Origin: a virus
Direction: 5' to 3' (one strand)
IMG/VR virus record: IMGVR_UViG_3300046004_001278
Coordinates: 1 to 23,130 of that record
DNA: 23,130 nucleotides
The stretch's first letter is position 1; every line of letters starts with the position of its first letter. Below are positions 1,888-21,880 of this stretch, in pieces. The notes under the pieces were generated by a model. It ran no database searches and was not told where the DNA came from. It worked only from the letters and a program-made list of their open reading frames with translations. Made by a program: the position numbers and the translations under genes.

Positions 1888-1896
1888 TATAAATAT
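1888..1896 (-). promoter_or_regulatory. ATATTTATA motif, candidate late promoter (62-aa gene block)
   Basis: Exact coding-strand nonamer, 22 nt before the ATG at 1865, in a 35-nt gap. One of six identical copies, each upstream of a structural or late-looking gene block. No host-type TTTG at the right spacing. Confidence 0.5.
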
Positions 1897-1900
1897 AACA

Positions 1901-2797
1901 CTATGTGTCAAAACGAATAATAAAGTTTACCGGATAATCAGGTAAGGACTTAATTGGTTGTGGTAATTTAGCTACTGCAACCATATTTAACTCATTATCA
2001 TACAATGCAATTGTCGTAATCATTGGTGCTAAAAATGAACCAGTCTGGTCTAAAGAACTACTTGCTTCATATTGATTAAAAGCACCTTTAACCCATTTTA
2101 TACCAGCATCATAAAAAGATGAAGTAACCAAATCTCCAATTTTAGTAGAACCCGGTCTTTGCATTATATGAGTATAAAGCCTACCACCATCTTCATACAC
2201 TGCCGAAGGGTTTTGTGAATAATTAAATTCACTTTCTAATACTGGAATGAATACTTCGTTTTCAAATATTGTTTTTGTTGAACGAAAGTTTAAAGTAAAT
2301 TGAGATAATACAGAACCGCTAACTATATCTTTTGCTACCACTATTAATCCTCTATCATAAAATATGTTTCCCTTAATATTACTACCAGAATCAATAAGAT
2401 TTGAATACCCATCATCTGTATATGTTCTTGCTAATTGTTCATCTTCCAATACAACAGTACCAACTTTTATTCCCTCACCATAATATATTTGTGGAATAGA
2501 AAATACAGCTATATTATCTTCCAAAATCCTTTCATTGGTTGATGCATATGAAATTCTCCTACCAACTTCTGTTAAAATTGATGATGTTGATGGATTTGTA
2601 TAGAATTGTGATTTTATAGATGCATAAATTACTTTTTTATTAAATCCGTGGCTTTTTGCATCATTATCAATATCAACTAATGTATTAACACCATTTGTAC
2701 CAAATATTGGATATATATCATTTTCATCTAATGTCCATTCCTTATAAACCTTCATTGGTCTAGTAATTACATCAGATTTTGGAATTTCTTTAATCAT
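1901..2797 (-). CDS. Virion structural protein, paralogue of the 413-aa protein upstream
   Basis: The 298-residue protein has the pattern of a family common in marine T4-like phages: an IPQIYYGEGIKVGTV segment, then a DDGYSNL motif, then FYDRGLIVV (about 145-155). Its C-terminal third aligns with the neighbouring 413-residue protein: EFNYSQNP versus EFNYSNNP, then a shared ITT(I/V)xL(Y/L)(D/N) stretch and AVAKLPQPIKS versus AIAKTSQPIVKS close to the end. Both terminate in an alternating hydrophobic strand. No signal peptide or membrane segment. It has its own ATATTTATA motif and is separated from its paralogue by a hairpin terminator, so the two can be expressed independently. Likely tail or baseplate decoration; the exact place in the virion is not known. 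Confidence 0.62.
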   Translation of the reverse strand: MIKEIPKSDVITRPMKVYKEWTLDENDIYPIFGTNGVNTLVDIDNDAKSHGFNKKVIYASIKSQFYTNPSTSSILTEVGRRISYASTNERILEDNIAVFSIPQIYYGEGIKVGTVVLEDEQLARTYTDDGYSNLIDSGSNIKGNIFYDRGLIVVAKDIVSGSVLSQFTLNFRSTKTIFENEVFIPVLESEFNYSQNPSAVYEDGGRLYTHIMQRPGSTKIGDLVTSSFYDAGIKWVKGAFNQYEASSSLDQTGSFLAPMITTIALYDNELNMVAVAKLPQPIKSLPDYPVNFIIRFDT

Positions 2798-2815
2798 TTA
2801 GTCTTCCGATTTGTA

Positions 2816-2824
2816 TATAAATAT
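2816..2824 (-). promoter_or_regulatory. ATATTTATA motif, candidate late promoter (298-aa gene)
   Basis: Exact nonamer 18 nt before the ATG at 2797, just downstream of the terminator hairpin. It is followed by TACAAAT, matching the extended form ATATTTATA-N-ACA-W seen at four of the six sites. Confidence 0.52.
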
Positions 2825-2835
2825 TGGTTAAATGA

Positions 2836-2859
2836 AAAACCCCCAATGAAGGGGGTTTT
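2836..2859 (-). terminator. Rho-independent terminator after the 413-aa virion gene
   Basis: A perfect 9-bp stem (AAAACCCCC pairing with GGGGGTTTT) with a 6-nt loop AATGAA, lying 22 nt after the stop of the 413-aa gene. In the coding direction the G run is followed by five T residues, then CATTT. The opposite strand also gives GGGGG followed by TTTTC, so it could work both ways. It is the only clear terminator hairpin I see in the window. Confidence 0.85.
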
Positions 2860-2881
2860 CTTTATTATGTTTCTAATTAAT

Positions 2882-4123
2882 TTAGAATGATAATTTAACT
2901 TTGATTAAAACTTCCTTATCAAAAGATTTAACAATTGGTTGTGAAGTCTTAGCTATTGCAACTAATTCGTTTGAATCATTTAATAAACCCACAGTTGTAA
3001 TATAAGTTTGAGGGTCAGTATTAAATGAAGTTTCAGTAAATGTACCATCAGCTGCTAAGTAAGTAGGGTTGTTAGAATAGTTAAATTCTCTATTTGTTGC
3101 TCTTACAAAGAAATGTTGTGTAGATACATTTTCAGTTCTTCTTGCTTCAAAATCACCACCTTTTTTAATTGCGTAGTATAATAACTTATGATTGTATGCA
3201 TCATGTGTTGTTGCAATTCCACCCTGTAAACTACCGGTATTTGGAAATCCAACTTCACCAACATTACCAACTACGTTTCCTATTGCCTTAGCGTTAAGAA
3301 CTATAATACCTCTATCAGGATAAAATTCTCCAAATCCTTCTCCTGTTGCCGAATATCCTGCTTTTAAATCCGTAGCTATATCTGCCGAATGTTTAATCGT
3401 TGCTTCACTTTGAGTTCCTAATTCCAGTGAACCAGAAACTACTTTAAATACATTACCAGCTAATCCCAAAGTATCACCAAATTTCTTACCACTATTATCA
3501 ATAAATGTAAATAAGCCATTAGAACCAGAAACTTTTAATGACCAGTTACCAGCATCCATTTTTTCTCTATATCTGTTTCTAGCTACATTAATGAAATAAA
3601 CTCCGTTTGCATCGGTTGAAATTGTAGAACTATTATCAAATTTGAATTTAGAAACAGTTGGTTCTAATAACATTGATTTATACTGAGCGTATGTTGATTT
3701 AGTTGGTAACAATGCGTTATCATCTAAATCCAATCTAACAGAACCACTTCCATCAACATGTCCATATGCCACAGCGAATTGAATTTCTTCATTATCTGAA
3801 AGAGATGGGTCAAGATCTAATACATTGTAATAATATTTCCCACTAGCTGCTGTTGTTTGAGATGATGCTGTATATACTGATGTCAATGAACCAGAATCAT
3901 TACTCCACAATCCTGTTGTTACTACTTCTATTTTAGCGTTTACTTTATCAAATTCACCAAATCTTTTGTAAAGACCTGTACCAGTTGTTCCAGTAGTTGC
4001 AATTTGCTGAGTAGCTGGTAGAGCTGAATTTAGTAATTGTACTATCGCATTTGAATCAATTGTACCAGTGTTAGCCAATGCTGCAATCTGCGAAGTTATA
4101 TTTGGGTTTGTTATTTGTGCCAT
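2882..4123 (-). CDS. Virion structural protein (413 aa)
   Basis: A Ser/Thr/Gly/Asn-rich, beta-type protein with no signal peptide or membrane segment. The N-terminus (about 1-45) is helical and Ala/Thr-rich and may be the attachment end. The middle has short polar loops. From about 280 the sequence FYPDRGIIVLNA matches the FYDRGLIVV motif of the 298-aa downstream neighbour, and the last 75 residues align throughout (EFNYSNNP, then DSNELVAIAKTSQPIVKS). The pair therefore arose by duplication, and this copy carries an extra N-terminal region of roughly 100 residues. Proteins with this pattern are annotated as virion structural proteins in marine T4-like phages. It is the second gene of a two-gene block ended by the hairpin at 2836-2859. 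Confidence 0.62.
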   Translation of the reverse strand: MAQITNPNITSQIAALANTGTIDSNAIVQLLNSALPATQQIATTGTTGTGLYKRFGEFDKVNAKIEVVTTGLWSNDSGSLTSVYTASSQTTAASGKYYYNVLDLDPSLSDNEEIQFAVAYGHVDGSGSVRLDLDDNALLPTKSTYAQYKSMLLEPTVSKFKFDNSSTISTDANGVYFINVARNRYREKMDAGNWSLKVSGSNGLFTFIDNSGKKFGDTLGLAGNVFKVVSGSLELGTQSEATIKHSADIATDLKAGYSATGEGFGEFYPDRGIIVLNAKAIGNVVGNVGEVGFPNTGSLQGGIATTHDAYNHKLLYYAIKKGGDFEARRTENVSTQHFFVRATNREFNYSNNPTYLAADGTFTETSFNTDPQTYITTVGLLNDSNELVAIAKTSQPIVKSFDKEVLIKVKLSF

Positions 4124-4143
4124 TTTCTTATTTCTATTTTATT

Positions 4144-4770
4144 TTATACAGATTGTTTGTATGTTATGATTACAGGTATAGTTTGAGAACCTCCAGTTTC
4201 ATTACCAAATACAGTTATTGTTGTTGATACATCAATTGTTAAGTTTGGATTTGGAGTAAATCTAAATTCTAAACCAGTAACTACTTGCGCAGTTGTTGTA
4301 ATTTCATCGCCCAAAAATACATTTGTAGTAGTAGCAGATGCTGTTTTACTTACAGTCAATGTACCAGCTCTTTGGTCTGCCAATACCATTGTGTATCCAC
4401 CATTTGTATTTCCAGCAGGAGATGTTGTTGGAGTTAATCCCACACCACCTTCTAATTGAGTTGCACTAACTTGAGTTACACCTAATTTAACAGTTGGTAT
4501 TTGAGTAGTTCCTTTTGGAAGGGTTACTAACTTATATCTTAATACTTGAGTTTCATCAGGTGAAGCTTCCGTAATAGGAATTGCTCTGATTGCTGAATCA
4601 TAGTATGCCGAACCCTTTGGATGTGCTGGTTCATAAAGCGTATAATCAATTTCATCATCACCTAAAGCGAACTTTGTAATGTTTAATGATTGTCCAGATG
4701 CTAATTTTTGTCTTCCTTTTTTTGTAAGGATTGCATCTACCGTAATTTCTGTGTTATCTAAATATGCCAT
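4144..4770 (-). CDS. Virion structural protein (208 aa), FALGDDEIDY family
   Basis: The N-terminal 80 residues contain a strongly patterned segment: TVDAILTKKGRQKLASG, then ITKFALGDDEIDYTLYEP. I associate it with small structural proteins of marine T4-like phages, generally found among tail, neck or fibre genes. The C-terminal part (about 105-205) is Thr/Val-rich with alternating hydrophobic residues and ends in an Ig-like strand pattern, which suggests a surface-exposed beta-sandwich. No signal peptide. It is the first gene after an ATATTTATA motif and is followed after 20 nt by the 413-aa gene. The structural role is inferred from family memory and context; the exact location in the virion is unknown. 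Confidence 0.6.
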   Translation of the reverse strand: MAYLDNTEITVDAILTKKGRQKLASGQSLNITKFALGDDEIDYTLYEPAHPKGSAYYDSAIRAIPITEASPDETQVLRYKLVTLPKGTTQIPTVKLGVTQVSATQLEGGVGLTPTTSPAGNTNGGYTMVLADQRAGTLTVSKTASATTTNVFLGDEITTTAQVVTGLEFRFTPNPNLTIDVSTTITVFGNETGGSQTIPVIITYKQSV

Positions 4771-4795
4771 TTGATATTGTTTTTTATCTATATTC

Positions 4796-4804
4796 TATAA
4801 ATAT
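4796..4804 (-). promoter_or_regulatory. ATATTTATA motif, candidate late promoter (208- and 413-aa genes)
   Basis: Exact nonamer 25 nt before the ATG at 4770, in the 54-nt gap after the 1744-aa gene. It is followed by GAATA, so it lacks the ACA extension of four other copies. Confidence 0.5.
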
Positions 4805-4824
4805 AACTAATTTTTATTTTCAAA

Positions 4825-7800
4825 TTAATCTACTTCAAGTATTGGTTCACCACTACCTCTACCTGTCTTAGCCACTTTAAGGATATTAGGATTGGTAGTA
4901 AATGTTTCTACTGGGTCCAAACCATCAGGTGTAGTTGCTGCTGTTTGTTGAGAACCTTTCCAAAATGAACGAATCATACCCTCACCTAAATTATTTTTGT
5001 ATCTATAATGTGTTGGGAAATATCCATTTAGTGCAGTAACTTCAACTACTTCATTACCAATAGATATACTACCACTATAAGGTAGTGTTGATACTTTATA
5101 TTTGTAGTTGATAACTGATACCTTTTCATATTTTTGAGCTTCACCTAAAAGAGCTCCATTAGTTGGCCAGCCTTTTACTAATGTATTTATTTTTTGAGTG
5201 TATTGCTCTTTTACTAAAAAAATACTTTTTCTACTTCCAGAAGTTGGATGATAATTTCCAAATAATGGGTCATAGTTACTAACTATACCAGTACCATGTT
5301 TAGCATATAATCCAAATCCCCTATTTGCTAAAGAATCTTTATCCATACCAATTTCAGTAAATGTAAATGAATCAGCTTCTCCAACCAAACTTGCCCCAGT
5401 AGGACATTGAATGAATGTATCATAAAAAGGAGCGCTTGATTCAAATGTAATTATTTCAGATGTATCTATTATTGTATCATAATTTTGATTAGTTCCCTCA
5501 AATACGATTACTTCATTTGCATCAATTGTAGTTTCTTCATTACTAATATCACTTGTAAGTAATACTACTTCTTCTGCGTTTATATGTGCATCTTTTGGAA
5601 TTGATTCACTTTCTAATATATAATTTTTATTAGTATCTATTGAAGTTTCAAAATCATTTCTTAAAGATTCCGGTTTAGTCCAACGAGTCTTACTTCTTTC
5701 TAAATAGTGAGGTTCTATTAGTAAACCTTTAACTATATTTGTTCTAGCCGGTGCTAAATCCGATAATACCTCAAATAAAGATTTATCAATGTATTTAATT
5801 AATCTTATATATTCATAGATATCTCTATTATCTAATCTTTCAAAATAATAATGTCTTAATGTATCTAATTGAGAATATGTATCTTTATATTCATCACCAG
5901 CATCTCCAATATAGTTATCAATATTAAAATCACCAAATGCTTTTAGGATATCCATATTCAACTCCTTAATTGGAGAGAAGAATAATCCCAAACGATTTGA
6001 ATCTATTGGAGCTCTATCAAATGATTTTTGAGTTGCTCTAACTTTATAAGATAAATCTCTACCAGGCATTAAACTTGATGATTCAAAACGAATTTTATTA
6101 GAATAATTAAATCCTAAAGATGGAACAGTTGCTGTTACAGTTCTATCATATGGTACATACTGATATGGATATACCGATGCTGAATACATATTACTTGCAA
6201 ATGCAAATGGTTCTCCATAGTTATCACTAATAGCTACGTTTTTAATTCCTATATTTTCAGTTATGGTTCTATTTTTTGGATATTCAAAATCCAATCTGAA
6301 CATTAAATCTTTTGTGGATGAATCAAAATCATTACCATTTATTGCATCAGGAAATAAAGTATGGTTTTCAAATTTACTTCTTTGTAAAGGAACAGTCCAA
6401 AAACGAAACTCATCCAATTCACCAGCATATCCTTTACCACCCACTACTAAATTTGGCTTTGAACCCGTCCATTGAGAATCATTATACATCATAGACATAC
6501 TAACCGAAGTTATAATTCTATTTCCATCGGATGTACCTAACCAAACCTCATACCAAGAAGATGAATCAGGATTATTGTGTCTATTGATTGCTACGTTTGA
6601 GTAATGTTCATTTGAAAGTGGAAAATCTAAACTTCCTGTTTTTAAATCCGGTCCAAATGCGTACTCACCATCTTCACCAGAATAATATACACTTGAAATT
6701 ATCACAGATGGTGTAAATGAACTTGTATAATTATATGTGAAAGGACTTCCAGTTATAGCACTTACAAATGGAAGAGCTGTATCAAAGTATGTACTATTGG
6801 AATCATTGCCACCAAAATTTAATTCTAATTTATAAAAAGAACCAGTTGTATTAACCAAATCTAAAGTAAATTCACTTCCAGATATTAATGTTGCTACAGA
6901 ATCAATACTGCCAGAAGGTCTTATTCTAAATTCAATACAATTTGGATAATCCAATGTTGCACCTACACTATGCCAAGGTACTATTATACTAGATTCCTCT
7001 CTTAATAATATTGCGGCCGTTCTATCATCAAAAGTAAATTTTGAACTGCCACCTTTTGTCGGGTCTTGCGGTCCACCAAATTCCATTATTGTCAACATAG
7101 ATTGAGGAACACCATAACAAGCCATAATAGCTTTCATAGCTCTAGCAGTACCTTTATGTTTCAATAAGTATGGTAAGTTATTTAATATTCTTCTCCAAAC
7201 CTCATCGTTTGCATCTGCCAATGGCATTCCATATTTTTGGAAACCATCTTTGTAAGTACCAAACGCATACTCCCATATTAATTCAGAATTAAATGCTCTT
7301 TTAGCATTCCAACCAAATGATTCCAATAAAGAATGAACCAAATTATTTGAGAATCCATTTACTTGCTTATGCTCTAACACTTTAGTCTTTGATAAATTAT
7401 TTATATAAACCCAAAGAATATCAAAGTGGTGTCCTATCATATCTAAAAATACTAAGAAGTCATTATTGTTATAATCTTCTTTTATAAATTCAGGTATATT
7501 GTTTACTAAATAATTTGGGTTATATTTATCATATTCTGAGGATAAATCTATTAATGTATTATACCATGCTATTGTAATTGCATGTGTTGTTGCTCTTAAT
7601 TTATAATATGGTAATCCAGTCAATGGATTTGCTTCTGCTGTTTTTGGATATGCTAAATCGTTTGTTGATTTATATAAGAAATTTTCAAATCCATCAAATC
7701 CCCTAATTAAAGAATTTATAGTATCTAATACTTTCTTAGCTTCACCAGCTTGAGATACACCAGCAAATTGTTGAATTTCCCATTGAATATCAAATAGGCC

Positions 7801-10059
7801 ATCTTCGGTAATAGTTTGATATCCATCTTGCGTTAATAATCCACCATCAAATGCGCCGTATGGTGGAATAAATGTTGGTGATATTAAACCTTCATATTTT
7901 TCTTTATAAGTTTCTAATAATTGTATTTTATAAAAGAAATTATTAGCTCTTTCTTCTACAGAACTAAAATTTGTAAAATTTGAAAATGTATAATCAGACC
8001 CACTAACATATTGTATATTTAATTTAGTAGTATCTATACCAGTACTTTCTAAAAATCTAGTTACTAAATCATTTGATGTAGTAGAACCACTAGCTATTAA
8101 ATCATCATAAACTTGATAAGCAATACCATTACTTTGTTCTAATGTAAAATTAGGTCCTTTTAATGGATTACAATATATTTCATCAATACCATTAATAGTT
8201 ATTGTTTCAACTATTGGTTGTGATTGTAATTTAGAAATCCAAACTTGTTCATTTGGTTGGATTGATGTAGGTAATGGTTCGTATAACTTTAATATCAAAG
8301 AAGCTTCACTACCAACCCAAGTTGTAATTACTTTTGTATCACCATTACCAATATGTAATAAGTGCGTTAAATATTTTGATGTTTCGTTTTCAAAAATTTT
8401 AGAATCAAATTGAGAAATAAATCCATCTGCAATTCTACTAATAGCAACATTTCTTGGTATTGTTAAATCTCCTTTATCAAACTTAATATTAATAAATTCC
8501 TCCTTACCAACTACAACTTTATATCCACTTTCGTTGTATGGTACTAATTTTAAAGTAATATTTATTAAATCATCAGTTTCAGAAACTTGAGTGCCATCTA
8601 ATTTTAATAACTCTTGAAAATTTAAATTTACTACACCAGCTGCAGTTGCTCTTATAAATCTATCACTACCAACTTTATATATCTTTACATAATCGGTATT
8701 TACAGATTCATAACTTATTACAAAATTTACATCAGTTCCAACAAAATCTGGTCCTTTTAATAATGATGGGTATTTTATATTTCTAATATCAGGTACACCA
8801 ACATACTGCTCACTATTAACATTTATTGTCAATTCAAGCTTCTCACCATCACCATCCGCACCTGAAGGTACTAATATTAATTTATAGTTTCCAATTGTAG
8901 AAAATGCTTTAGCTGGTATAATAATTACTGCACTTTTTGATTCCGCTGATGGACGATTGAAAAGAGATACTCCGGATGTAGCTAAGTTTGAAAATGTAAA
9001 TGTTTGATTATTTATATAAGCAGTAATCTTTGATGTATTACCACTTTTACTTAATCCTATCGGATAATCTGCTTTTGAATTTAAATTGTATTTTCTATTT
9101 GGCTCTGCATTATTTAATGCTAATGTTGGTTTGGTTACTATTTTTGTTACAAATATTTCAGAAATAATACCAATATTATAATTTGCATTATTTAAATCAA
9201 TTGTGGTGGATAAACTATCTTCATTAGATTTAGCCTCTAATGTTTTTTCTTTATATACATCAGATTTTACATTTATAGTTTTAATTCTATAATTTTTTAA
9301 ATCAGCTGATTGTATAATAGCTTTACCCCCATCTGGTATTGCTATTTTATTATTTCCACTTTTTAATACTATTGCTTCTCCAACAGTTAATACACCTTCA
9401 GAATTTACTATATTAGTTATTACACTAACAGATGCATCAGGACCATTTAAATCAATTAAAGTAAATTTTAATAATGGTTCATCTGGTATTATTTGCCTTT
9501 CTAGGTTAAATAAAATAGTATTTGAATATTGTCCATCGCTAAAAGTTATATATGATTGCTCAACATCATCTATATATTTTTTTATATTTATAGTATATAA
9601 TAATTCTTCTGAATATTCTAAACTAGCTATTGGTACGTTGGGTAAACTAGTAAAAATATTTTGCGTATCCATTCCACTATTATTTCCCAATAACTGAGCT
9701 GCCGTATTATAATTTAGATTTCTATTATAATTTGGATTCGTTACTACAGATACTATGTATTTATCACTTGAAACATATCCATCTTTTTTTAATTTAATTT
9801 CCGTATCTCCTTTTAATAATAAATTGCCAGTTGATATTGTAATTGTATTATTTGTTTTTTTAGATATAGATTCGCCATTTACAATAATATCTGCATCTTT
9901 TACATTTGAATCTACATTTATAATATATGATTGATTAGATAGTACAGTATTTGGTGTGTTTGTTAATATTACATTTCCAGTATCAGCAGACGTGATACTT
10001 CCACCACCACCACCGGTTACAACATCTCCATCAATTATTATATCTTCTACTGCTCTCAT
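4825..10059 (-). CDS. Giant baseplate/tail protein: tail-protein-I-like region plus LamG-like lectin domain (1744 aa)
   Basis: The largest gene in the window. Residues 1-25 hold a Gly5 linker. About 30-110 resembles a PEGA-like beta module (IIVNGESI ... LKKDGY), followed by several Ig-like segments to about 650. About 720-985 is helical and contains NLPYLLKHKGTARAMKAIM then ACYGV (about 955-985), the pattern of phage tail protein I (P2 gpI type), a baseplate component. About 1010-1225 is a concanavalin/LamG-type sandwich ending GELDEFRFWTVPL, a likely sugar-binding domain. About 1385-1460 is a second helical segment (LRHYYFERLDNRDIYEYIR, then LSDLAPARTNIVKGLLIEP), followed by three 19-residue repeats (about 1490-1548). 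It occupies the place of T4 gp7-gp10 after gp6, so it likely links the wedge to host-facing parts. Domain borders are estimates. Confidence 0.7.
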   Translation of the reverse strand: MRAVEDIIIDGDVVTGGGGGSITSADTGNVILTNTPNTVLSNQSYIINVDSNVKDADIIVNGESISKKTNNTITISTGNLLLKGDTEIKLKKDGYVSSDKYIVSVVTNPNYNRNLNYNTAAQLLGNNSGMDTQNIFTSLPNVPIASLEYSEELLYTINIKKYIDDVEQSYITFSDGQYSNTILFNLERQIIPDEPLLKFTLIDLNGPDASVSVITNIVNSEGVLTVGEAIVLKSGNNKIAIPDGGKAIIQSADLKNYRIKTINVKSDVYKEKTLEAKSNEDSLSTTIDLNNANYNIGIISEIFVTKIVTKPTLALNNAEPNRKYNLNSKADYPIGLSKSGNTSKITAYINNQTFTFSNLATSGVSLFNRPSAESKSAVIIIPAKAFSTIGNYKLILVPSGADGDGEKLELTINVNSEQYVGVPDIRNIKYPSLLKGPDFVGTDVNFVISYESVNTDYVKIYKVGSDRFIRATAAGVVNLNFQELLKLDGTQVSETDDLINITLKLVPYNESGYKVVVGKEEFINIKFDKGDLTIPRNVAISRIADGFISQFDSKIFENETSKYLTHLLHIGNGDTKVITTWVGSEASLILKLYEPLPTSIQPNEQVWISKLQSQPIVETITINGIDEIYCNPLKGPNFTLEQSNGIAYQVYDDLIASGSTTSNDLVTRFLESTGIDTTKLNIQYVSGSDYTFSNFTNFSSVEERANNFFYKIQLLETYKEKYEGLISPTFIPPYGAFDGGLLTQDGYQTITEDGLFDIQWEIQQFAGVSQAGEAKKVLDTINSLIRGFDGFENFLYKSTNDLAYPKTAEANPLTGLPYYKLRATTHAITIAWYNTLIDLSSEYDKYNPNYLVNNIPEFIKEDYNNNDFLVFLDMIGHHFDILWVYINNLSKTKVLEHKQVNGFSNNLVHSLLESFGWNAKRAFNSELIWEYAFGTYKDGFQKYGMPLADANDEVWRRILNNLPYLLKHKGTARAMKAIMACYGVPQSMLTIMEFGGPQDPTKGGSSKFTFDDRTAAILLREESSIIVPWHSVGATLDYPNCIEFRIRPSGSIDSVATLISGSEFTLDLVNTTGSFYKLELNFGGNDSNSTYFDTALPFVSAITGSPFTYNYTSSFTPSVIISSVYYSGEDGEYAFGPDLKTGSLDFPLSNEHYSNVAINRHNNPDSSSWYEVWLGTSDGNRIITSVSMSMMYNDSQWTGSKPNLVVGGKGYAGELDEFRFWTVPLQRSKFENHTLFPDAINGNDFDSSTKDLMFRLDFEYPKNRTITENIGIKNVAISDNYGEPFAFASNMYSASVYPYQYVPYDRTVTATVPSLGFNYSNKIRFESSSLMPGRDLSYKVRATQKSFDRAPIDSNRLGLFFSPIKELNMDILKAFGDFNIDNYIGDAGDEYKDTYSQLDTLRHYYFERLDNRDIYEYIRLIKYIDKSLFEVLSDLAPARTNIVKGLLIEPHYLERSKTRWTKPESLRNDFETSIDTNKNYILESESIPKDAHINAEEVVLLTSDISNEETTIDANEVIVFEGTNQNYDTIIDTSEIITFESSAPFYDTFIQCPTGASLVGEADSFTFTEIGMDKDSLANRGFGLYAKHGTGIVSNYDPLFGNYHPTSGSRKSIFLVKEQYTQKINTLVKGWPTNGALLGEAQKYEKVSVINYKYKVSTLPYSGSISIGNEVVEVTALNGYFPTHYRYKNNLGEGMIRSFWKGSQQTAATTPDGLDPVETFTTNPNILKVAKTGRGSGEPILEVD

Positions 10060-10063
10060 TTTT

Positions 10064-11290
10064 TTATTTTTGTGCTTTACCCCTTTCTACATCGGACCTA
10101 ATTCTACCATCATTTCCATCATATCCATCATCTAAGAAACCACCACCTCCACCGCCGCCAGTTCCACCACCACCACTATCAGGTGGAGGTATATAATCCG
10201 GCTCATCATCAGGTGTTATTATTTTAATATCTATTGGTTCTTCCTCTGGTAATTCAATTTTAATTTGCTTTTCCAACTCCAATTGAATGTCTGTTTGTGT
10301 TAGTGTTTTAGATTCTCCAACATTTACAACAGGAGATGTAGTATCTACTAATGTATCAGATTCTAATGATTGTAGTACATTTCCCACTGTATCCATAGAT
10401 TCATTTATCCCAGAATCAAATGTTGTTGCTGTTTTAATATCTTGCTTTGATAAATAGTATTCTATTGTACTAACTAAAATTGTTTTACAAATTTCTATAA
10501 TTTCAGTTTTTGATAATTCAATTTTTGTTTTTTTATTACTAGGTTTACCATAATTTATATTTTTTAAATCAGATATCCTATTTGTAAATTCATACGTTGA
10601 AGCTTCTAAAAATTTATTATGTATTGTTGTTATAAATGTATCAAAATTTTTTATTTTAAATTCACCAATCATTTTGTTCAACCACTTTTCAGAATACTTT
10701 CTTTTCATAAATGAATTTATTGTAGTTGGTGTAATTGCTTCTACAAAATTAAAAGAAGAATTTATAGTATCATCTCTAAATTCACCTCCCATCATAAATA
10801 AAGAAAATCTATCTTCCAATTCTTTGTTTATATTATTTGCATCTCTTATAGGAAATAATCTAACTTCTGTTCTAGATGGGGATATTTCAGATATCCAAAG
10901 TTTATCATTATTTATCTCACTTCCAACTCTTTTATTAATAAGAGTTATTTGTGTTTTAAAATTTCCATTATTATATCCAGCTTCTCTTAACAATCTTTCA
11001 ACATCTATAAAATATTCATTTGGTAATTTATATTTTTGAAATTCAGTACCTTCTGCTATTAAAAAATAATCTTTTATATTATCAGTTGTCAATGGTATAT
11101 ATCTAACTAAATTACCGTCTTTTTGCGGTAGTTGATTATCATTTATATCATATATAATAAATTCAATACAATCGTTTTGTCCTAATCCAAAAAAAGACTG
11201 AATATCTCCGTTTTCAAATATTTTTCTATCATTTGAATTAACACGATATCCTTTGTTATCTAATATTTCTTTGAATGTTTTTATTGCCAT
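10064..11290 (-). CDS. Baseplate-region structural protein with Gly-rich C-terminal tail (408 aa)
   Basis: I do not recognise a named family. The N-terminal 150 residues look like a compact mixed domain (IEFIIYDINDNQLPQ ... KLWISEISPSRTEVRLFPI); the last motif is of the kind found in phage baseplate and neck proteins. Residues about 160-285 are helical and Lys-rich. From about 300 the chain becomes acidic and Pro-rich (EEEPIDIKI, DDEPDYIPPP) and then carries a Gly run (GGGG-T-GGGGGGG) before an Asp/Arg-rich end. The last third is therefore probably a flexible tether. It lies between the 353-aa and 1744-aa genes with a 4-nt gap to the latter, whose own N-terminus also has a Gly5 linker. A wedge or wedge-to-fibre connector role is inferred from gene order only. 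Confidence 0.5.
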   Translation of the reverse strand: MAIKTFKEILDNKGYRVNSNDRKIFENGDIQSFFGLGQNDCIEFIIYDINDNQLPQKDGNLVRYIPLTTDNIKDYFLIAEGTEFQKYKLPNEYFIDVERLLREAGYNNGNFKTQITLINKRVGSEINNDKLWISEISPSRTEVRLFPIRDANNINKELEDRFSLFMMGGEFRDDTINSSFNFVEAITPTTINSFMKRKYSEKWLNKMIGEFKIKNFDTFITTIHNKFLEASTYEFTNRISDLKNINYGKPSNKKTKIELSKTEIIEICKTILVSTIEYYLSKQDIKTATTFDSGINESMDTVGNVLQSLESDTLVDTTSPVVNVGESKTLTQTDIQLELEKQIKIELPEEEPIDIKIITPDDEPDYIPPPDSGGGGTGGGGGGGFLDDGYDGNDGRIRSDVERGKAQK

Positions 11291-11302
11291 AATTGTAATC
11301 TA

Positions 11303-12364: not shown

Positions 12365-12366
12365 TA

Positions 12367-15470: not shown

Positions 15471-15475
15471 AGTAA

Positions 15476-15904
15476 TTATGCTTGGATGTTAAATGATAGA
15501 GTTTCTAAATTAACATTATTTTGTATTCTAAATCTCAAAGAAACATTTACTTGATTACTATCTTTGAATTCATTTGTTTGCTCTATTGATATATCTTCAA
15601 TTGTTACAAATGGTAACCAAGTTTCCATTGAACTGTTTATTGTATCTTCTATCTTTTGAGCTAAATCTTCATCATTCATTTCAAATAATAATTCTTGCAT
15701 ACCACTACCTAAATTTGGTTGCATTAACCTTTCATATTTTTTAGTAAGTAATAGATTTTTTATATTTGATTTAGTTTGCTCTATTGTTGTAAATGATTGA
15801 TTGAAAGCGGTATTACCAATTTGTATAGGCAGTGTTATACCAATAGCATAATCATTATACTTTTCGGTATCTTTTACTAATTTTTGCCCTAATACAATTG
15901 CCAT
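15476..15904 (-). CDS. Baseplate wedge protein gp25-like (GPW/gp25 family)
   Basis: A 142-residue protein of the gp25/GPW family, present in nearly all contractile injection systems; it anchors sheath to wedge. The recognisable core runs from NIKNLLLTKKYERLMQPNLG (about 46-65) through ELLFEMNDEDLA to EDTINSSMETWLPFVTIEDI (about 87-106), then the paired strands VNVSLRFRIQ and LETLSFNI. The first 40 residues hold a short helix and an IGITLPIQIG strand. T4 gp25 is 132 residues, so the length fits. It is not a lysozyme, despite older labels for this family. The start overlaps the stop of the 166-aa gene (TAATG). Very secure. Confidence 0.93.
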   Translation of the reverse strand: MAIVLGQKLVKDTEKYNDYAIGITLPIQIGNTAFNQSFTTIEQTKSNIKNLLLTKKYERLMQPNLGSGMQELLFEMNDEDLAQKIEDTINSSMETWLPFVTIEDISIEQTNEFKDSNQVNVSLRFRIQNNVNLETLSFNIQA

Positions 15905-16404
15905 TACTTCTTTTTAAATCTTTTTACAAGTTCTGAATAATCCCTATTCAAAGCTTTATCTATTTCAGCTACTCCAGTGTTTACACCCAATCCAGTTGGT
16001 TGAGGTCCTTTAGCCATTTCACCATAACCCATTTTTTCAGCTAATGCACTTCCACCTGCAATTGAACCCATATCACCTTGTCCAAAATTCATTGTTCTAA
16101 AACCACCATCTCCCTGCGGAATACCACCTTTAGTTTCATTAAGGATTTGATTAATCATCGGGTTTTTACTGAATTGCTTTGTTGGTGCTACGTTTTGAAC
16201 TACCGATTCTTTAATAGTATCATCTCCCAATATAGCCTTAGCCATTGAGATACTCTTTGATACTGGTTTTGGGGCTACCTTTGTTTCAGATAGCATTTTT
16301 TTCATTTCAGCCTTCACACCTTCCTTAATTAAAGCAGGTAATTGCTCTTTAAGCTCCTCTTTAATAAGAATTTGAATGGCTTCTAATAGTTTATCCATGT
16401 CCAT
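15904..16404 (-). CDS. Structural protein of the baseplate region (166 aa), function unknown
   Basis: First gene of the longest block, preceded by an ATATTTATA motif. The N-terminal 40 residues are an amphipathic, Glu/Lys-rich helix (LLEAIQILIKEELKEQLPAL), probably a coiled coil. The middle is low in hydrophobics and Gly/Met/Gln-rich (about 95-135, GGFRTMNFGQGDMGSIAGG). The end is basic (ELVKRFKKK). Small proteins of this layout sit next to gp25 in several marine T4-like phages and are labelled virion structural proteins; I rely on memory of gene order for that. A role as a connector between hub or tube and wedge is possible. No catalytic motif is visible. Confidence 0.55.
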   Translation of the reverse strand: MDMDKLLEAIQILIKEELKEQLPALIKEGVKAEMKKMLSETKVAPKPVSKSISMAKAILGDDTIKESVVQNVAPTKQFSKNPMINQILNETKGGIPQGDGGFRTMNFGQGDMGSIAGGSALAEKMGYGEMAKGPQPTGLGVNTGVAEIDKALNRDYSELVKRFKKK

Positions 16405-16431
16405 AATATTCTATTCTTTGTTTGTTATGTT

Positions 16432-16440
16432 TATAAATAT
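16432..16440 (-). promoter_or_regulatory. ATATTTATA motif, candidate late promoter (baseplate wedge block)
   Basis: Exact nonamer 27 nt before the ATG at 16404, in a 63-nt gap. It is followed by AACATAA, matching the extended ACA form. It would drive seven genes from the 166-aa gene through the 1744-aa gene. Confidence 0.55.
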
Positions 16441-16467
16441 TTAAATTAAGTATTTTTGAGATTTAAC

Positions 16468-17769
16468 CTATTTGGATATATTATAAATGTCTTGAAGTGT
16501 TGTTTCTGACGTAATTGTGTATCCCTGTCCTTTAAAATAATTAATTACAAAATTAGTATATGCTGTTGGGTTATTAGTACTTTTATACCATTTTCCGTTT
16601 TTATCTTTGCTCATAACAGGTGCATATGTTGACAAATATTTAAATAATGAATATGTTGTTTTATAATATGGAGATGTTCCTTTAAATACCCTTCCCAATA
16701 CTTTATTCCATTGCGCCGCTATACCAGCCTCTAAAGTATCAAATTTTCCAATATGAATACCATCTGTACCAACATTACCAGGATTATTTGTTCTAAATGA
16801 TAATGATCCTGGGAAATATCCTTCCATCATAGCTTGAGCTGCCATCAATACTCGTATTCCTTTTGGTTTATCTACGTGTACTTTTTCCATTGTTGGTACA
16901 TATATTTTTCGTATTGTATCAGATGGACTTAAAGCTTTTCCTGTATATCCACTATAATCAAATCCATTTGGAAAATTTGGATTATTATTTTGTGTTTCGG
17001 ATATTACTCCTGGAACATATAATATTGTATAATCTGGTCCATCTATTGCTAATGATTGTCCAGAATCTATATCACTACTATTTAAATCAAAATCATCTTT
17101 AGTATTTGTTGTTTGTACTAATTGTAATGTTTCACCTCCTAAAATCCATGGTGGTTTTGGTATATCATCTAAATCAATAGTAATGTTAGCTGATAGTTTT
17201 ACTGATATTGGGGATGGGTCAATAAAATACCCAGTCCAATTTATTATAGCAGGACCAGGGGTTGCAAATGGTGGATATAACGAATTTGTAATAATAAATC
17301 CAGTAACCGTAGCTAAATGTGTTTGTGCATAAAATATAAAAATATCTACTAATGTTTGTGGTATTGTTGTTGGTGGAATTAAAAATGCAGGCTTCCATAT
17401 GCCAGGAGTCATTACCATATTATAATAAACTCCAATATTTTGAACGGTACCAGGTGCAGGAATTATTGGTATTGGAAATTCATTTAAAACTGCTGAGCTC
17501 CAATATGCAATCACACCACCACCCATAGCGCCAACCAAATCATATGCCACTGTTGATAGTTGTCCTTGTTGTAATGCAAATTTAAATAATGTTTTCATCA
17601 TTTCTACATTACCCTTCTTTACACTGGCCATACTAATAACATCCATTCCCCTTTTTATACAAGCATCATATTCTTCGGCATATGTCTTAGCTACTAAATC
17701 TATATCATTTATAGATTCAGGGTTTTCACTCATTCTTACAATATTTTGTTTAAATGTTACCCAAGACAT
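16468..17769 (-). CDS. Tail-associated peptidoglycan hydrolase-like protein (433 aa)
   Basis: The C-terminal 130 residues look like a muramidase or lytic-transglycosylase-type domain. AAQAMMEGYFPG places a candidate catalytic Glu at about 316, and SFRTNNPGNVG (Asn-Asn-Pro-Gly-Asn at about 328-332) is the motif of phage P5-type and related virion muralytic proteins. GIAAQWNKVLG and the final helices complete a small lysozyme-like fold. The N-terminal 300 residues are different: a helical start, a hydrophobic Gly/Pro-rich stretch (about 75-130, VGAMGGGVIAYW), then beta-rich sequence. The gene is 1 nt downstream of the spike gene. In T4 the lysozyme domain is within gp5; here it appears to be a separate polypeptide that would digest the cell wall during injection. 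Structural location is inferred. Confidence 0.68.
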   Translation of the reverse strand: MSWVTFKQNIVRMSENPESINDIDLVAKTYAEEYDACIKRGMDVISMASVKKGNVEMMKTLFKFALQQGQLSTVAYDLVGAMGGGVIAYWSSAVLNEFPIPIIPAPGTVQNIGVYYNMVMTPGIWKPAFLIPPTTIPQTLVDIFIFYAQTHLATVTGFIITNSLYPPFATPGPAIINWTGYFIDPSPISVKLSANITIDLDDIPKPPWILGGETLQLVQTTNTKDDFDLNSSDIDSGQSLAIDGPDYTILYVPGVISETQNNNPNFPNGFDYSGYTGKALSPSDTIRKIYVPTMEKVHVDKPKGIRVLMAAQAMMEGYFPGSLSFRTNNPGNVGTDGIHIGKFDTLEAGIAAQWNKVLGRVFKGTSPYYKTTYSLFKYLSTYAPVMSKDKNGKWYKSTNNPTAYTNFVINYFKGQGYTITSETTLQDIYNISK

Positions 17770-17770
17770 C

Positions 17771-19018
17771 TTATGATAATTGAGTTCGTTGACTTAAAAT
17801 ACTATTCAATTTAGATTTAATCATACCAAAATCGGGAGAGTTTACAGGTCCTAATGCCGATGGTCCTGATGGTGTTAAATATTGTTGCTGTCCTATTGCA
17901 TCTATTAACTCAGATAATATATCTACTAATTGTTGTCCTTTTACCATTGGTTCTAAATCCACACTACCAAAAAACATTGTACCATTTCCAGTTACAAAGT
18001 TTATATCCCTATCATTTGTTATAATATTAATATTATCACCAACACTTATATCAATACCACCTTGGTTATCAATTGACATTGAACCATCTGATATAAATCC
18101 ATAATTCTTTTTTGAATAGAATAACATTTCACCACTTTTAGCAGATAATATTATTCTTCCAGAATTTAAAAGTAACTGGTCACCAATTAATTTTGTTGGA
18201 TAATCTTCAAATGATTCTGGTTTTGTTTTAAAATCTCCTTTACCTTTATCATCCACTGTGCCTGGTATAAACCCTAATTGGTGTTCTCCAGATGTTAAAG
18301 CTATTATAGTACCATCTAAATTCACATCTTCCTCTACACTTTGTGTTTCTCCTAATTTTATATTATTAGATGATTCTCTATTTCTTATTATTATAGTTGG
18401 AGAAAACTTATTTTTTGCATTATTAAATCCAGAAAATCTAATTGATTGGCCGAATCTACTTTCTATTAAACTATCACCTTCATATAATTTTAATTTATGT
18501 ATATTTTGTTGAGATTCATAATACTTACCAAACACATTATACAAAGATGAATTACTTTTATTTGTTTTGGGAATATTAGTATCTAATCTTTGTTGATATT
18601 CTTTAGATTGATTAGTATTTTCTTTTTTTTCTGGAAAATTATTAGATATAGCATTTTTAACTGCTGATATTGTTGGATTGTATTCTTGTGTAATTCTTTT
18701 ATAAAAATATAATCCGGGACTACTTTCATGTATTTCCACAGATTCATTTATAATTGGTATATTTTTAAAATTTTTATCAAATGGATATGCTATTGGCAAT
18801 TGAGATACATCAGTAATTATATTATTTTTTTTTCTGAATTTAATAGCTCCTATTAAAGAACTATTTGTTGCTAATGGATGCGAATCATCAATAATAATAT
18901 CATAAACAATAGCTACTGTTCCTGATTTATTTACAAATTGGGATTCTAATATTATTGAATCTGATGAATCTATTGATATACTGTTTCCTAGTCTAGCCGA
19001 GCTTAAACCTCCTCCCAT
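17771..19018 (-). CDS. Baseplate hub spike protein, gp5-like (415 aa)
   Basis: Central spike at the tip of the tail tube that pierces the outer membrane. About 35-105 fits the N-terminal OB-fold of gp5-type spikes (IVYDIIIDDSHPL ... GAIKFRKKN). GDSLIESRFGQSIRFS (181-196) is the recognisable hub motif, also seen in gp5-like proteins of marine T4-like phages. About 278-352 is a run of short strands (LLLNSGRIILSAKSGEMLFY, later GIDISVGDNINIIT) that would form the trimeric beta-helix. The last 60 residues are helical with Gln/Pro-rich sequence. Unlike T4 gp5 there is no lysozyme domain between the OB-fold and the helix; the muralytic domain is in the next gene. One nucleotide separates it from the 130-aa gene before it. 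Confidence 0.8.
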   Translation of the reverse strand: MGGGLSSARLGNSISIDSSDSIILESQFVNKSGTVAIVYDIIIDDSHPLATNSSLIGAIKFRKKNNIITDVSQLPIAYPFDKNFKNIPIINESVEIHESSPGLYFYKRITQEYNPTISAVKNAISNNFPEKKENTNQSKEYQQRLDTNIPKTNKSNSSLYNVFGKYYESQQNIHKLKLYEGDSLIESRFGQSIRFSGFNNAKNKFSPTIIIRNRESSNNIKLGETQSVEEDVNLDGTIIALTSGEHQLGFIPGTVDDKGKGDFKTKPESFEDYPTKLIGDQLLLNSGRIILSAKSGEMLFYSKKNYGFISDGSMSIDNQGGIDISVGDNINIITNDRDINFVTGNGTMFFGSVDLEPMVKGQQLVDILSELIDAIGQQQYLTPSGPSALGPVNSPDFGMIKSKLNSILSQRTQLS

Positions 19019-19019
19019 A

Positions 19020-19412
19020 TTATTTCATTTTTTGTTTTAATTCATCTAATTCAAATTCTAAATCATCAACTCTTTCAACTTGCTCTTTTGTTTCTTCTAA
19101 ATCTTTAAGTAATTGTTCTTTCTCAAATGCTGATAGAAATCCTTCTTGTCCTTCGGTTTTCTTTTCAGATGCTATAATCTTAGTTGCTATTGTTGCTAAT
19201 TTAACCAATTGGTCATCGTTCCTAACTGAGCTATCAATCAGTCCACCAATTACAGGACCTAAAGTTCCCATATCACCGGCATGTCTAACCATTTTCTTTA
19301 GTTCCTCAATTAGAGCACTAATCTTTGTTTTTTTAGAAACTTGGTTGTTATAGATATCCTCAAAAAGACCACTTAATGATTTACCTTTGAATAATTCAAA
19401 TTCTGTTGACAT
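19020..19412 (-). CDS. Coiled-coil structural protein before the spike (130 aa)
   Basis: Almost wholly helical. The first 20 residues are mixed; about 28-47 (KISALIEELKKMVRHAGDMG) and 60-82 form helices, and the last 45 residues are a strongly charged coiled coil (EKEQLLKDLEETKEQVERVDDLEFELDELKQKMK region). There are no cysteines and no signal peptide. It is the first gene of the spike block, preceded by an ATATTTATA motif, with 1 nt to the spike gene. I associate this type with conserved small virion proteins of marine T4-like phages, but I cannot give an equivalent T4 gene. A chaperone or adaptor role for spike assembly would fit the position and size, as inference only. Confidence 0.55.
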   Translation of the reverse strand: MSTEFELFKGKSLSGLFEDIYNNQVSKKTKISALIEELKKMVRHAGDMGTLGPVIGGLIDSSVRNDDQLVKLATIATKIIASEKKTEGQEGFLSAFEKEQLLKDLEETKEQVERVDDLEFELDELKQKMK

Positions 19413-19438
19413 ATTAATATATTTACATTTTGTATGTA

Positions 19439-19447
19439 TATAAATAT
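19439..19447 (-). promoter_or_regulatory. ATATTTATA motif, candidate late promoter (spike block)
   Basis: Exact nonamer 26 nt before the ATG at 19412, in a 56-nt gap. It is followed by TACATAC, matching the extended ACA form. Confidence 0.55.
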
Positions 19448-19468
19448 GATTCTATTAAAATGTTGAAA

Positions 19469-20284
19469 TTAAACTGGGATTACTTCAATTGTAATCTTTG
19501 GTTGATATCCTTCAGGCAATTGTCTATTAATACCTTTGAATTCGTTTACCTTACCCTTAAAGTAAGTTATTTGTAATATACGGTCTGTCAGATTCATTAC
19601 AGTTTGAGATGATGTAGACATTTCTTCCGTATCTCTTTTCATATTAAGGGCGGGTTTCTTTGGAAAGTATTCCTTTCTCATAGCCTGTGCTATTGCTTTC
19701 CAATCCTCTACTTTATCAACCGATTTTTCTGCTGATATTTTTCTCATTTTTGAACTTAGATATTTCTCACCACTTGTATATCCAGCATCGGTGAACATAT
19801 GTCCGTGATTTGTACGAACAACAGGTGATTCAGAGTTTTGGAGTTTAACATCAGGCTTATGCTTTGATGTAGTTTCAATACTAACCATATGTTTTGTAGA
19901 TGATACAAATGTATGACCTTTAAGAGATAATCCACTCTTGCCCTTATATGATAGTGCAGCTCGTACTGCATCAATTAAAGTAGGTTGCTTAATGATGTTT
20001 CTCATCTTATCACCATCAGGTCCAGGTTTACCAGCTTTCTTTACAAGCTTAGCTTCAGCTTCATCGTGTCCAACTAATAGTGCTGAGTTTACAACACCAA
20101 TTCCGTTTTCGTTTAAACCCTCACTCCAATCCGTTATTAAATCATGTAGATATGCAACTTCCACACCATCAATGATAGTATGTACGATTTCTAAAGATGG
20201 ATTATAAGCTCTATCTCTATTTTTAGCTAGGATAAACTTATCTTTAATTTCTTTAGATACGATTATGCACTCTGAAAGTTTCAT
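19469..20284 (-). CDS. Ntn-hydrolase-like protein (choloylglycine hydrolase / acyltransferase / TANGO2-type fold)
   Basis: A 271-residue protein. CIIVS at 6-10, ILAKNRDRAY at 18-27 and GLNENGIGVVNSAL at about 55-68 are the spaced landmarks of Cys-nucleophile Ntn hydrolases: nucleophile Cys, the (R/K)N-x-D acid site, and the Gly-Asn/Gly strand. The spacing from Cys6 to Asp24 (18) is one shorter than in choloylglycine hydrolase (Cys2 to Asp21). A later N-H-G segment (RTNHGHMFTDAG, about 158-169) may supply the Asn of the oxyanion hole. The family cuts or forms amide bonds in substrates such as bile salts, N-acyl lactones, penicillins or peptides; the substrate here is unknown. Cys6 would need removal of five residues, MKLSE, which ends in the LxE pattern cut by T4-type prohead proteases. 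Its start abuts the stop of the 200-aa gene. Confidence 0.62.
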   Translation of the reverse strand: MKLSECIIVSKEIKDKFILAKNRDRAYNPSLEIVHTIIDGVEVAYLHDLITDWSEGLNENGIGVVNSALLVGHDEAEAKLVKKAGKPGPDGDKMRNIIKQPTLIDAVRAALSYKGKSGLSLKGHTFVSSTKHMVSIETTSKHKPDVKLQNSESPVVRTNHGHMFTDAGYTSGEKYLSSKMRKISAEKSVDKVEDWKAIAQAMRKEYFPKKPALNMKRDTEEMSTSSQTVMNLTDRILQITYFKGKVNEFKGINRQLPEGYQPKITIEVIPV

Positions 20285-20887
20285 TTAGAATCCTATTGAA
20301 ATTACATCACCATCCGCTTCAACCCAACGAATCTTTAATGCTAATAATTTTTTAAGAGTATCAGCTCCAAAACGATAACCAGTTCCAAAATTGCCTCTTG
20401 CTGGAATATCTACAACCATTCCGTGAATACCAGCAAAAATTTGAGAATGGTCTGCACCAATTACTTTTTGAAATGCTACAACCTGTTTTTGTTGAATAGG
20501 TTTTAATTCTTTGAATTTTATTTCCGATGCTTCGTTTATTGATTCAACTTTAGCACCATCCAATCCACCATATCTAAGTGTGTATATATATTGATACAAT
20601 TCAGGCCATCCACCTTTAACTGCACCAAAATCGTATTTATAGAATACTTTAGAACCAAAAGTTGCAGATGATGTTTCTTCACCTCTACCACCTAAATATG
20701 GTTCTTGCTTATCTTTGAATTTTAAGAAAGCCTTATATCCTCTCATTAAATCAGTATTTTTCTGAGCTAATGTAGTCATTATTTGCTTAACCTTTGGATA
20801 TTTTTTTAAAAATGTTTCCACTGCTTTACTATCCACTCTACGAACTAAAATAGTTTCTTCGTTTAGTATATTTTTTAACTTTATCAT
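20285..20887 (-). CDS. Unknown protein with possible T4-type capsid-targeting N-terminus (200 aa)
   Basis: No known domain is recognised. The N-terminus MIKLKNILNE resembles the ten-residue capsid-targeting peptide of T4 internal proteins (MKTYQEFIAE), which is cut by the gp21 protease after (L/I)-x-E; here the site would be LNE after residue 10. The rest is a mixed globular protein, basic in its first third (about 20-60) and with a Gly-rich loop GGRGEETSS (about 66-74). The last 25 residues form a strand-helix-strand end (KKLLALKIRWVEADGDVISIGF region). No membrane segment. It is 1 nt from the 104-aa gene, which also begins MIKL, and abuts the Ntn-hydrolase-like gene. A co-packaged, injected protein is the hypothesis; otherwise unknown. 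Confidence 0.55.
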   Translation of the reverse strand: MIKLKNILNEETILVRRVDSKAVETFLKKYPKVKQIMTTLAQKNTDLMRGYKAFLKFKDKQEPYLGGRGEETSSATFGSKVFYKYDFGAVKGGWPELYQYIYTLRYGGLDGAKVESINEASEIKFKELKPIQQKQVVAFQKVIGADHSQIFAGIHGMVVDIPARGNFGTGYRFGADTLKKLLALKIRWVEADGDVISIGF

Positions 20888-20888
20888 A

Positions 20889-21203
20889 TTAAAATGCTCC
20901 GTTTAATTCTTTAGCTGCATCAGAACCATATTTTGATTTAAATTTATCCATCAAATCTTTTAACACACTACTTCTATATTTAGAAATCTCCGTTGGCATT
21001 GAACCTTCTATTGTATGTATTGTTTCTACTGCCTGTAATTTTTTAACAGATTTAGTATCATTTAAAAATGTTGCTAATTCTATTACAGAACCAGTATGGT
21101 CATTTCTATCAGTTAGTTTAGCTATCTTAGCCACTATTTGTTTAGTATCTAAAGATTCGGTTACTTTAGGTTTTCCAGTTACAATACCCATTAATTTTAT
21201 CAT
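20889..21203 (-). CDS. Small helical protein of unknown function (104 aa)
   Basis: Lys/Thr/Ser-rich and mainly helical, with no membrane segment, signal peptide or metal-binding motif. It begins MIKLMGIVTG, sharing MIKL with the next gene; the nearest Glu to fit a protease site is VTES at about 14-17, which has Val in place of Leu or Ile, so I do not claim a capsid-targeting peptide here. The central part (about 30-75) looks like two or three helices of a small bundle (IAKLTDRNDHTGSVIEL). It is 1 nt after the membrane-anchored gene and 1 nt before the 200-aa gene, so it is tightly co-transcribed with them. Function unknown. Confidence 0.5.
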   Translation of the reverse strand: MIKLMGIVTGKPKVTESLDTKQIVAKIAKLTDRNDHTGSVIELATFLNDTKSVKKLQAVETIHTIEGSMPTEISKYRSSVLKDLMDKFKSKYGSDAAKELNGAF

Positions 21204-21204
21204 C

Positions 21205-21852
21205 TTATTTCTTTAATTTAAGTTTCCAATAAACACCACCTCTTACATATGGAGTAAATCCACCATTTGTACCATCGGTTGTTTGATTAGTAACGCCTAA
21301 ACCCAATTGGTATATCTTATCTTTCTTAGTATTGATTAACACACCGGCTCCTACTGAACTTACAAAATCTGCTTTATTGAATCCACCCTCTAAACCATAA
21401 AATAATTTAGTCTTTGGTAATTCTTTTACAATTGTAGTTTCTTTGATAGTTCTTTGCTTAACACTTGCGTTGAAAGTTCTACCTAATATTTTGTTTTGTG
21501 AAATAGTATCATTTAAAGCAACAATACCTAATGAATCAGGTAAAACTAATGTATCTTTGTATAATACTTTTGAGTAATAGTCTTTTAATAAAGCCATAGT
21601 ATCAATAACCGCTGGAATGATTACTTCTTTCTCTACGATTGTTTCATGGTAGATATCTTCACCTTTTTTAGTTACCACTTTAGTTTTCACAATATCAATA
21701 GTATCAATTTCGTGCTTAATTACTTCATATGCTTTACCAGCTATGAATACTTTCTTACCTGGCATAACTCCACCTGGGTTAAACCACTCCAATAAAACGA
21801 ATATAATCAATACTGCGATTGCTATATTCTTAAAGTTCAACAAATTTTTCAT
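21205..21852 (-). CDS. Membrane-anchored protein with beta-rich C-terminus (215 aa)
   Basis: Residues 10-21 (IAIAVLIIFVLL) form a single N-terminal hydrophobic segment after a short basic tail (KNLLNFK), fitting a signal anchor with the rest outside the inner membrane. About 40-130 is a charged, partly extended region (TIDIVKTKVVTKKGEDIYHE) that may span part of the periplasm. About 150-215 is beta-rich with Gly/aromatic alternation (LFYGLEGGF ... GLGVTNQT ... YVRGGVYWKLKLKK), like barrel or autotransporter-type strands. It lacks a lipobox and has only one helix, so it is not a classical two-component or unimolecular spanin, though a lysis or envelope-bridging role is one option. It is the first gene of the block starting at the 21872-21880 motif. 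Function unknown. Confidence 0.5.
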   Translation of the reverse strand: MKNLLNFKNIAIAVLIIFVLLEWFNPGGVMPGKKVFIAGKAYEVIKHEIDTIDIVKTKVVTKKGEDIYHETIVEKEVIIPAVIDTMALLKDYYSKVLYKDTLVLPDSLGIVALNDTISQNKILGRTFNASVKQRTIKETTIVKELPKTKLFYGLEGGFNKADFVSSVGAGVLINTKKDKIYQLGLGVTNQTTDGTNGGFTPYVRGGVYWKLKLKK

Positions 21853-21871
21853 AATATATTTGATTTATGTG

Positions 21872-21880
21872 TATAAATAT
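21872..21880 (-). promoter_or_regulatory. ATATTTATA motif, candidate late promoter (membrane protein / Ntn-hydrolase block)
   Basis: Exact nonamer 19 nt before the ATG at 21852, in a 37-nt gap. It is followed by CACATAA, matching the extended ACA form. It would drive the four genes down to 19469. Confidence 0.53.

Follow-up and report, generated by a model that had tools for sequence, protein, structure and literature searches.

The nonamer ATATTTATA is predicted, with a probability that we put at about 0.8, to be a single-box late promoter, which in a large group of T4-like phages would be read by a phage sigma factor on the host core RNA polymerase. The box is enriched in intergenic gaps, follows the coding strand, is conserved at the same gaps in relatives, precedes structural genes, has no -35 box and is linked to a family of proteins that resemble gp55 and sigma region 2; each of these findings supports the late-promoter reading. 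Most phages of this group probably infect Bacteroidota. In the open literature, to which our search was confined (subscription papers were outside it), no earlier report of the motif or of a late promoter of this group was found.

The box in the window and in its relatives

The window, that is, the whole stretch of DNA that was analysed, is the record IMGVR_UViG_3300046004_001278, which is only a fragment, of 23,130 nt. All its genes are coded on the minus strand and comprise the T4-type baseplate genes gp6 and gp25 (identified with PHROGs), a primase gene and uncharacterised genes. The sequence-only reading had listed six copies of ATATTTATA, each 18-27 nt before the next start codon. All six positions proved correct, the copies lie on the minus strand, which is the coding strand of every window gene, and the measured distances to the ATG (gene starts were taken from a simple ATG-based caller) agree with the range given. 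The box at 1888-1896 is found 22 nt before the ATG of a gene coding for 62 aa (1677-1865), and that at 2816-2824 lies 18 nt before a gp105-like gene (1901-2797), directly after an intrinsic terminator (2835-2859, minus strand), whose C-rich/G-rich hairpin and T run close the upstream transcript just before the box. The copy at 4796-4804 precedes a gp107-like gene (4144-4770) by 25 nt; that at 16432-16440 is located 27 nt before the 166-aa gene (15904-16404), the first gene of the gp25-gp6 baseplate operon. The remaining two, at 19439-19447 and 21872-21880, stand 26 nt before a gp117-like gene (19020-19412) and 19 nt before a 215-aa gene (21205-21852), respectively. The primase gene (70-1008), in contrast, has a host-type promoter at 1026-1056 on the minus strand, with TTG at 1056-1054 and TATATTTG at 1033-1026. 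A seventh copy of the nonamer, absent from the sequence-only reading, is present on the plus strand at 9584-9592, antisense inside a 1744-aa gene, and was judged to be a chance match.

Two points concerning the annotation of the window emerged from this inspection. The product of 1263-1673 (minus strand) is named NAD synthetase by PHROGs, but homing endonucleases are among its matches too, and in Microcystis phage Mel-JY01 the protein that occupies this position ahead of the primase is annotated as GIY-YIG; the name looks doubtful. At 21890-23128 (minus strand) the two listed ORFs are misleading, since a single open frame runs from 21890 past the window end, with a low-complexity stretch rich in Ala, Ser, Pro, Glu and Lys followed by a C-terminal domain.

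Over the whole window the nonamer occurs 7 times as compared to 2.6 expected, a mildly unusual count that was reached in 2 of 100 shuffles. The window has exactly eight gaps of at least 20 nt, as had been claimed, and the box is present in six of them; the claim that such a word should be rare there also held, 0.13 copies being expected (Poisson P ~7e-9 for a word named in advance). When the post-hoc choice of the word was taken into account, some nonamer occurred at least six times in 24 of 5000 simulated gap sets (~0.5%). By itself, the window is no more than suggestive, and the decision comes from the relatives.

A gp6-like query retrieved at least 596 relatives from IMG/VR, of which the best 80 (63-100% identity) were kept, and the counts were made on 75 of these loci together with five long contigs (49-169 kb). 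In this set the nonamer was found 195 times in gaps in the sense orientation and once in the antisense orientation, as compared to 15 sense and 19 antisense copies (34 in all) in about 1.24 Mb of coding sequence. Its density is 2.15 per kb of gap vs. about 0.012 per kb of sense coding sequence. When 8-mers were ranked without any seed, ATATTTAT and TATTTATA were the two most gap-enriched words in every long relative. When sites were gathered with TATTTATA alone, 99% of the 116 non-redundant ones proved to have an A before this word, and the nonamer is therefore a real unit. The distance from the box to the next ATG is about 13-28 nt in the relatives. The extension N-ACA-W, described in the sequence-only reading, is seen as N-ACA in four window copies but is not kept across the relatives, where the flanks show only a preference for T right after the box (~60%) and for A three positions later.

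The box is kept at the same gaps even where protein identity falls below 50%, as observed with homologs of the 166-aa gene and of gp117. The exact box is present in 90 of 95 distinct upstream regions of the former and in 104 of 129 of the latter, CTATTTATA and CTATTTATT being the main variants. No copy was found in several hundred distinct upstream regions of genes internal to operons (homologs of gp25, gp6, gp111, gp106 and gp116). As proposed in the sequence-only reading, the box stands before virion genes: in the relatives G001, G002 and G003 it precedes gp117, the gene ahead of gp25, gp107, gp105, a gp73-like gene after the portal gene, and the head completion, sheath, hub and other genes, each in at least one of the three. 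In the same three relatives a two-box promoter of the Bacteroidetes type precedes the primase gene and many small early genes.

The same box is found in cultured phages. In Flavobacterium phage immuto (NC_055915.1), 38% identical at gp6, TATTTATA is the top 8-mer of the gaps, with 24 copies in gaps and 4 in genes, and precedes the terminase, sheath, tube, hub and other virion genes. In Mel-JY01 (42% identity at gp6) the top 8-mers are ATATTTAT and TATTTATA, located ahead of portal-like, tube and other genes, often at 33-36 nt, and the orientation of the box matches the coding strand also for genes on the minus strand. According to its record, Mel-JY01 has a cyanobacterium as host, whereas immuto is recorded from a flavobacterium; that the two have the same box speaks for its recognition by a phage factor. 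Genome bins were uninformative on the hosts, as they yielded only two MAG contigs at 40-41% identity. A second motif was noticed at about 60,955-76,215 of immuto, namely ATATTTAGG with CAATAATTAA some 10 nt downstream; each of the two has about 15 copies, mostly before short hypothetical genes, and this is probably an early promoter.

Late sites, host-type promoters and other explanations of the box

Late and host-type sites form separate classes. The absence of a second box, claimed in the sequence-only reading, was borne out by 159 non-redundant late sites, in which TTG is found upstream in 20% of cases as compared to 16% for a control window. Of the 66 non-redundant host-type sites, 61% have a TTG at a distance of exactly 23 nt upstream of the first base of TAnnTTTG. 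These host-type promoters are strict, with TTTGG followed by CGTATATTTGT, in G001-G003, in other relatives and at 1026-1056 of the window. The late sites have neither of the two elements that define a Bacteroidetes host promoter (TAnnTTTG, and TTG about 23 nt upstream). Intrinsic terminators are present in 30% of the late-box gaps of 60-120 nt vs. 8% of other gaps, and in late gaps of any length 44 of 48 terminators lie upstream of the box. Some weak preferences were also seen in the 159 late sites: counting from the first A of the box, A is infrequent at -18 and -3, and position -14 is almost devoid of G and C.

The likeness of TATATTTA to TATATTTG, in phages that also carry true host-type boxes, raises the question of whether the late box is derived from the host -7 box TAnnTTTG, an A having replaced the G, and is used by the main host sigma with or without a phage activator and with no phage sigma. 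We consider this unlikely, because late and host-type sites are clearly separate (the G goes together with the TTG at 23 nt, and late sites are without both), because they divide by gene function and because Mel-JY01, recorded from a cyanobacterium, has the same late box. Far less probable is that the box acts on the opposite strand, as TATAAATAT, a sequence that includes the exact T4 box TATAAATA, and gives antisense transcripts into the preceding genes. This had been judged unlikely in the sequence-only reading, and we reject it: 195 of 196 gap copies are oriented like the gene that follows them, as are those before the minus-strand genes of Mel-JY01, the spacing to the next ATG stays at about 13-28 nt, and the preceding genes are separated from the box by their own terminators, which are found upstream of it. 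Considering that TATTTATA is already like TATAAATA in 6 of 8 positions in register, the exact T4 box on the other strand is a coincidence of sequence.

That the box lies near the start codon, at a fairly constant spacing, would also suit an element of translation or mRNA stability in the leader, all the more so since, according to one study (PMC6847099), Flavobacterium mRNAs lack a Shine-Dalgarno sequence and bases near the start codon tune initiation. Such an element is highly improbable, because the box is missing before every operon-internal gene tested, in several hundred distinct upstream regions, is replaced by a host promoter at the primase gene and is placed after terminators. Large phages of other groups use an RNA polymerase of their own, and the box might be read by such an enzyme instead of by the host core with a sigma factor. 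This explanation has a very low probability, since no catalytic match of the beta' type was obtained in G001, G002 and immuto, whereas all 14 controls matched; a search for single-subunit polymerases (PF00940) also gave nothing, but it matched no control either and hence is weak.

A candidate sigma family linked to the box

Recognition of the box by a phage sigma factor would involve a gp55-like protein, for which the sequence-only reading had proposed a search. A candidate family was indeed found in the relatives, through weak but consistent profile and fold matches. The T4 late-sigma profile phrog_234 matches gp118 of immuto weakly (E 0.008), whereas gp118 itself has strong homologs (E 2e-42 to 2e-46), among them those of G001 and G003. 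Among the matches listed, at least 100 further loci, and well above that, contain a member of the family. Of 67 aligned members, 30 match the late-sigma profile at E up to 1 (best 8e-4) and 6 match another sigma profile. Searches of the relatives with phrog_12791 and PF04542 gave nothing. The family has no meaningful match in Pfam, and no relative is above the cut-off for Sigma70_r2, which T4 gp55 itself also misses. A search of PDB sequences with the family gave no sigma match, but only chance matches to chitinase (E 0.4-0.7).

The full-length structural model (pLDDT 75.6, pTM 0.46) has an extra C-terminal helical domain, and nearly all its Foldseek matches are sigma factors; the best E was 0.025 in the PDB and 1.2e-4 in the viral library (an unnamed entry, followed by a phage sigma-E factor). 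The model of the N-terminal domain (pLDDT 83.5) matches almost only sigma region 2. With T4 gp55 in the open promoter complex 7d7c it gave a query TM of 0.61 over 119 columns, the highest of 50 listed, and with RpoS region 2 a query TM of 0.53, while in the PDB an E below 0.025 was not reached by Foldseek. The candidate thus appears from the models to have a sigma region 2 fold, with weak Foldseek E-values. For this reason, the case for a sigma factor is built on profile, fold, synteny and promoter biology, all of which agree. Direct comparison with T4 gp55 was not decisive: hhalign of the family against this single sequence gave a probability of 0.7% (P 0.08, not significant), in an alignment that places the invariant Tyr91 of the family on Y97 of gp55, and pairwise z-scores over shuffles were 3.6 for immuto, 3.7 for Mel-JY01 (with a different alignment) and 1.1 for the relative L033.

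In contigs that reach far enough, the sigma gene is found upstream of gp117-gp116-gp25-gp6, and in Mel-JY01 it lies immediately before gp117. None of 127 upstream regions of the sigma gene itself contains the late box, which fits a factor whose synthesis would have to precede late transcription. Three distant carriers of the family (L287, L288 and LR756508) have few boxes in the stretch read. The gene was not found in the window nor in the fragments G002, G004 and G005. However, homologs of the 271-aa and 215-aa genes of the window lie between the sigma gene and gp117 in L225 and L271, respectively, a gene order that places the window's own copy, which presumably exists, beyond the end at 23130. 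Among the candidates L207-L285, only members from the clade of the window carry an acidic-aromatic C-terminal tail (EDEFFSY, NDFWEEEYL or NPYLDNEFL), which is absent from immuto-type members. It is loosely like the clamp-binding tails of T4 gp55, gp33 and gp43, and may leave room for a clamp or another partner.

Proposed late transcription and comparison with T4 and other systems

From these data we infer that transcription starts at the box, that it is late and that the candidate protein reads the box. Early and replication genes would be transcribed by the host polymerase with its own sigma from two-box host-type promoters. The phage sigma, encoded upstream of the gp117-gp116-gp25-gp6 baseplate cluster, would then bind the host core and direct it to the ATATTTATA boxes before the structural operons. 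Here the nonamer would serve as recognition box in the -10 position (about -14 to -6), with no -35 box, and transcription would start about 6 nt after it, giving a leader of roughly 10-20 nt. The factor would be a late sigma in one piece, probably clamp-independent, working with the host core polymerase.

These phages, most of them uncultivated, form a very large group in environmental data, with at least 596 gp6-like relatives, and the box together with the sigma family offers an easy way of recognising late genes from sequence in many uncultivated contigs. The question of a clamp-free T4-like late transcription with a one-piece sigma can now be tested in the cultured Flavobacterium phage immuto.

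The likeness to T4 late promoters consists in a single AT box of 8-9 bp in the -10 position without a -35 box, in its placement before structural genes and in virion genes of the T4 type; the region 2 of the candidate sigma may be gp55-like as well. The box itself differs. The exact T4 box TATAAATA was not found on the coding strand, where the box is (A)TATTTATA; in register, 6 of 8 positions are identical, including A-12 and A-8, with two central changes from A to T and an extra A in front. In T4, gp55 inserts A-12 and A-8 into pockets and Y97 stacks on A-12 (PMC7892883). The T4 sigma is split, gp33 standing in for domain 4, and activation is brought about by the clamp gp45 (PMC2988020). As compared to gp55, the candidate adds a C-terminal helical domain of its own. 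The gp45 profile PF02916 finds the T4 clamp but none in immuto or in the five long contigs, which may be incomplete, and no bacterial-type clamp was above the cut-off in a search of these phages. Given that the relatives yielded no T4-type clamp, activation probably proceeds otherwise than in T4. The box would work like T4 late promoters while lacking two of their defining features as tested, namely the box sequence and a detectable gp45 clamp. A tentative explanation, less probable than not, is that of an unsplit T4 late sigma, with a gp55-like region 2 and a C-terminal domain replacing gp33, which would read TATTTATA with no phage clamp; the acidic-aromatic tail could then bind another clamp, possibly that of the host. 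If true, late transcription would have an alternative, or an ancestral, design within the T4 superfamily.

Bacteroidetes host promoters (TTG/TAnnTTTG), which serve the primase and early genes of the same phages, share a similar TATATTT core, but the late box is without their final G and the upstream TTG at fixed spacing. In phages phiEco32 and 7-11, sigma-like proteins switch the host polymerase to later genes, as described in one report (PMC8948821); these phages belong to a different group, and the likeness lies in a phage sigma that redirects the host polymerase, as is proposed here.
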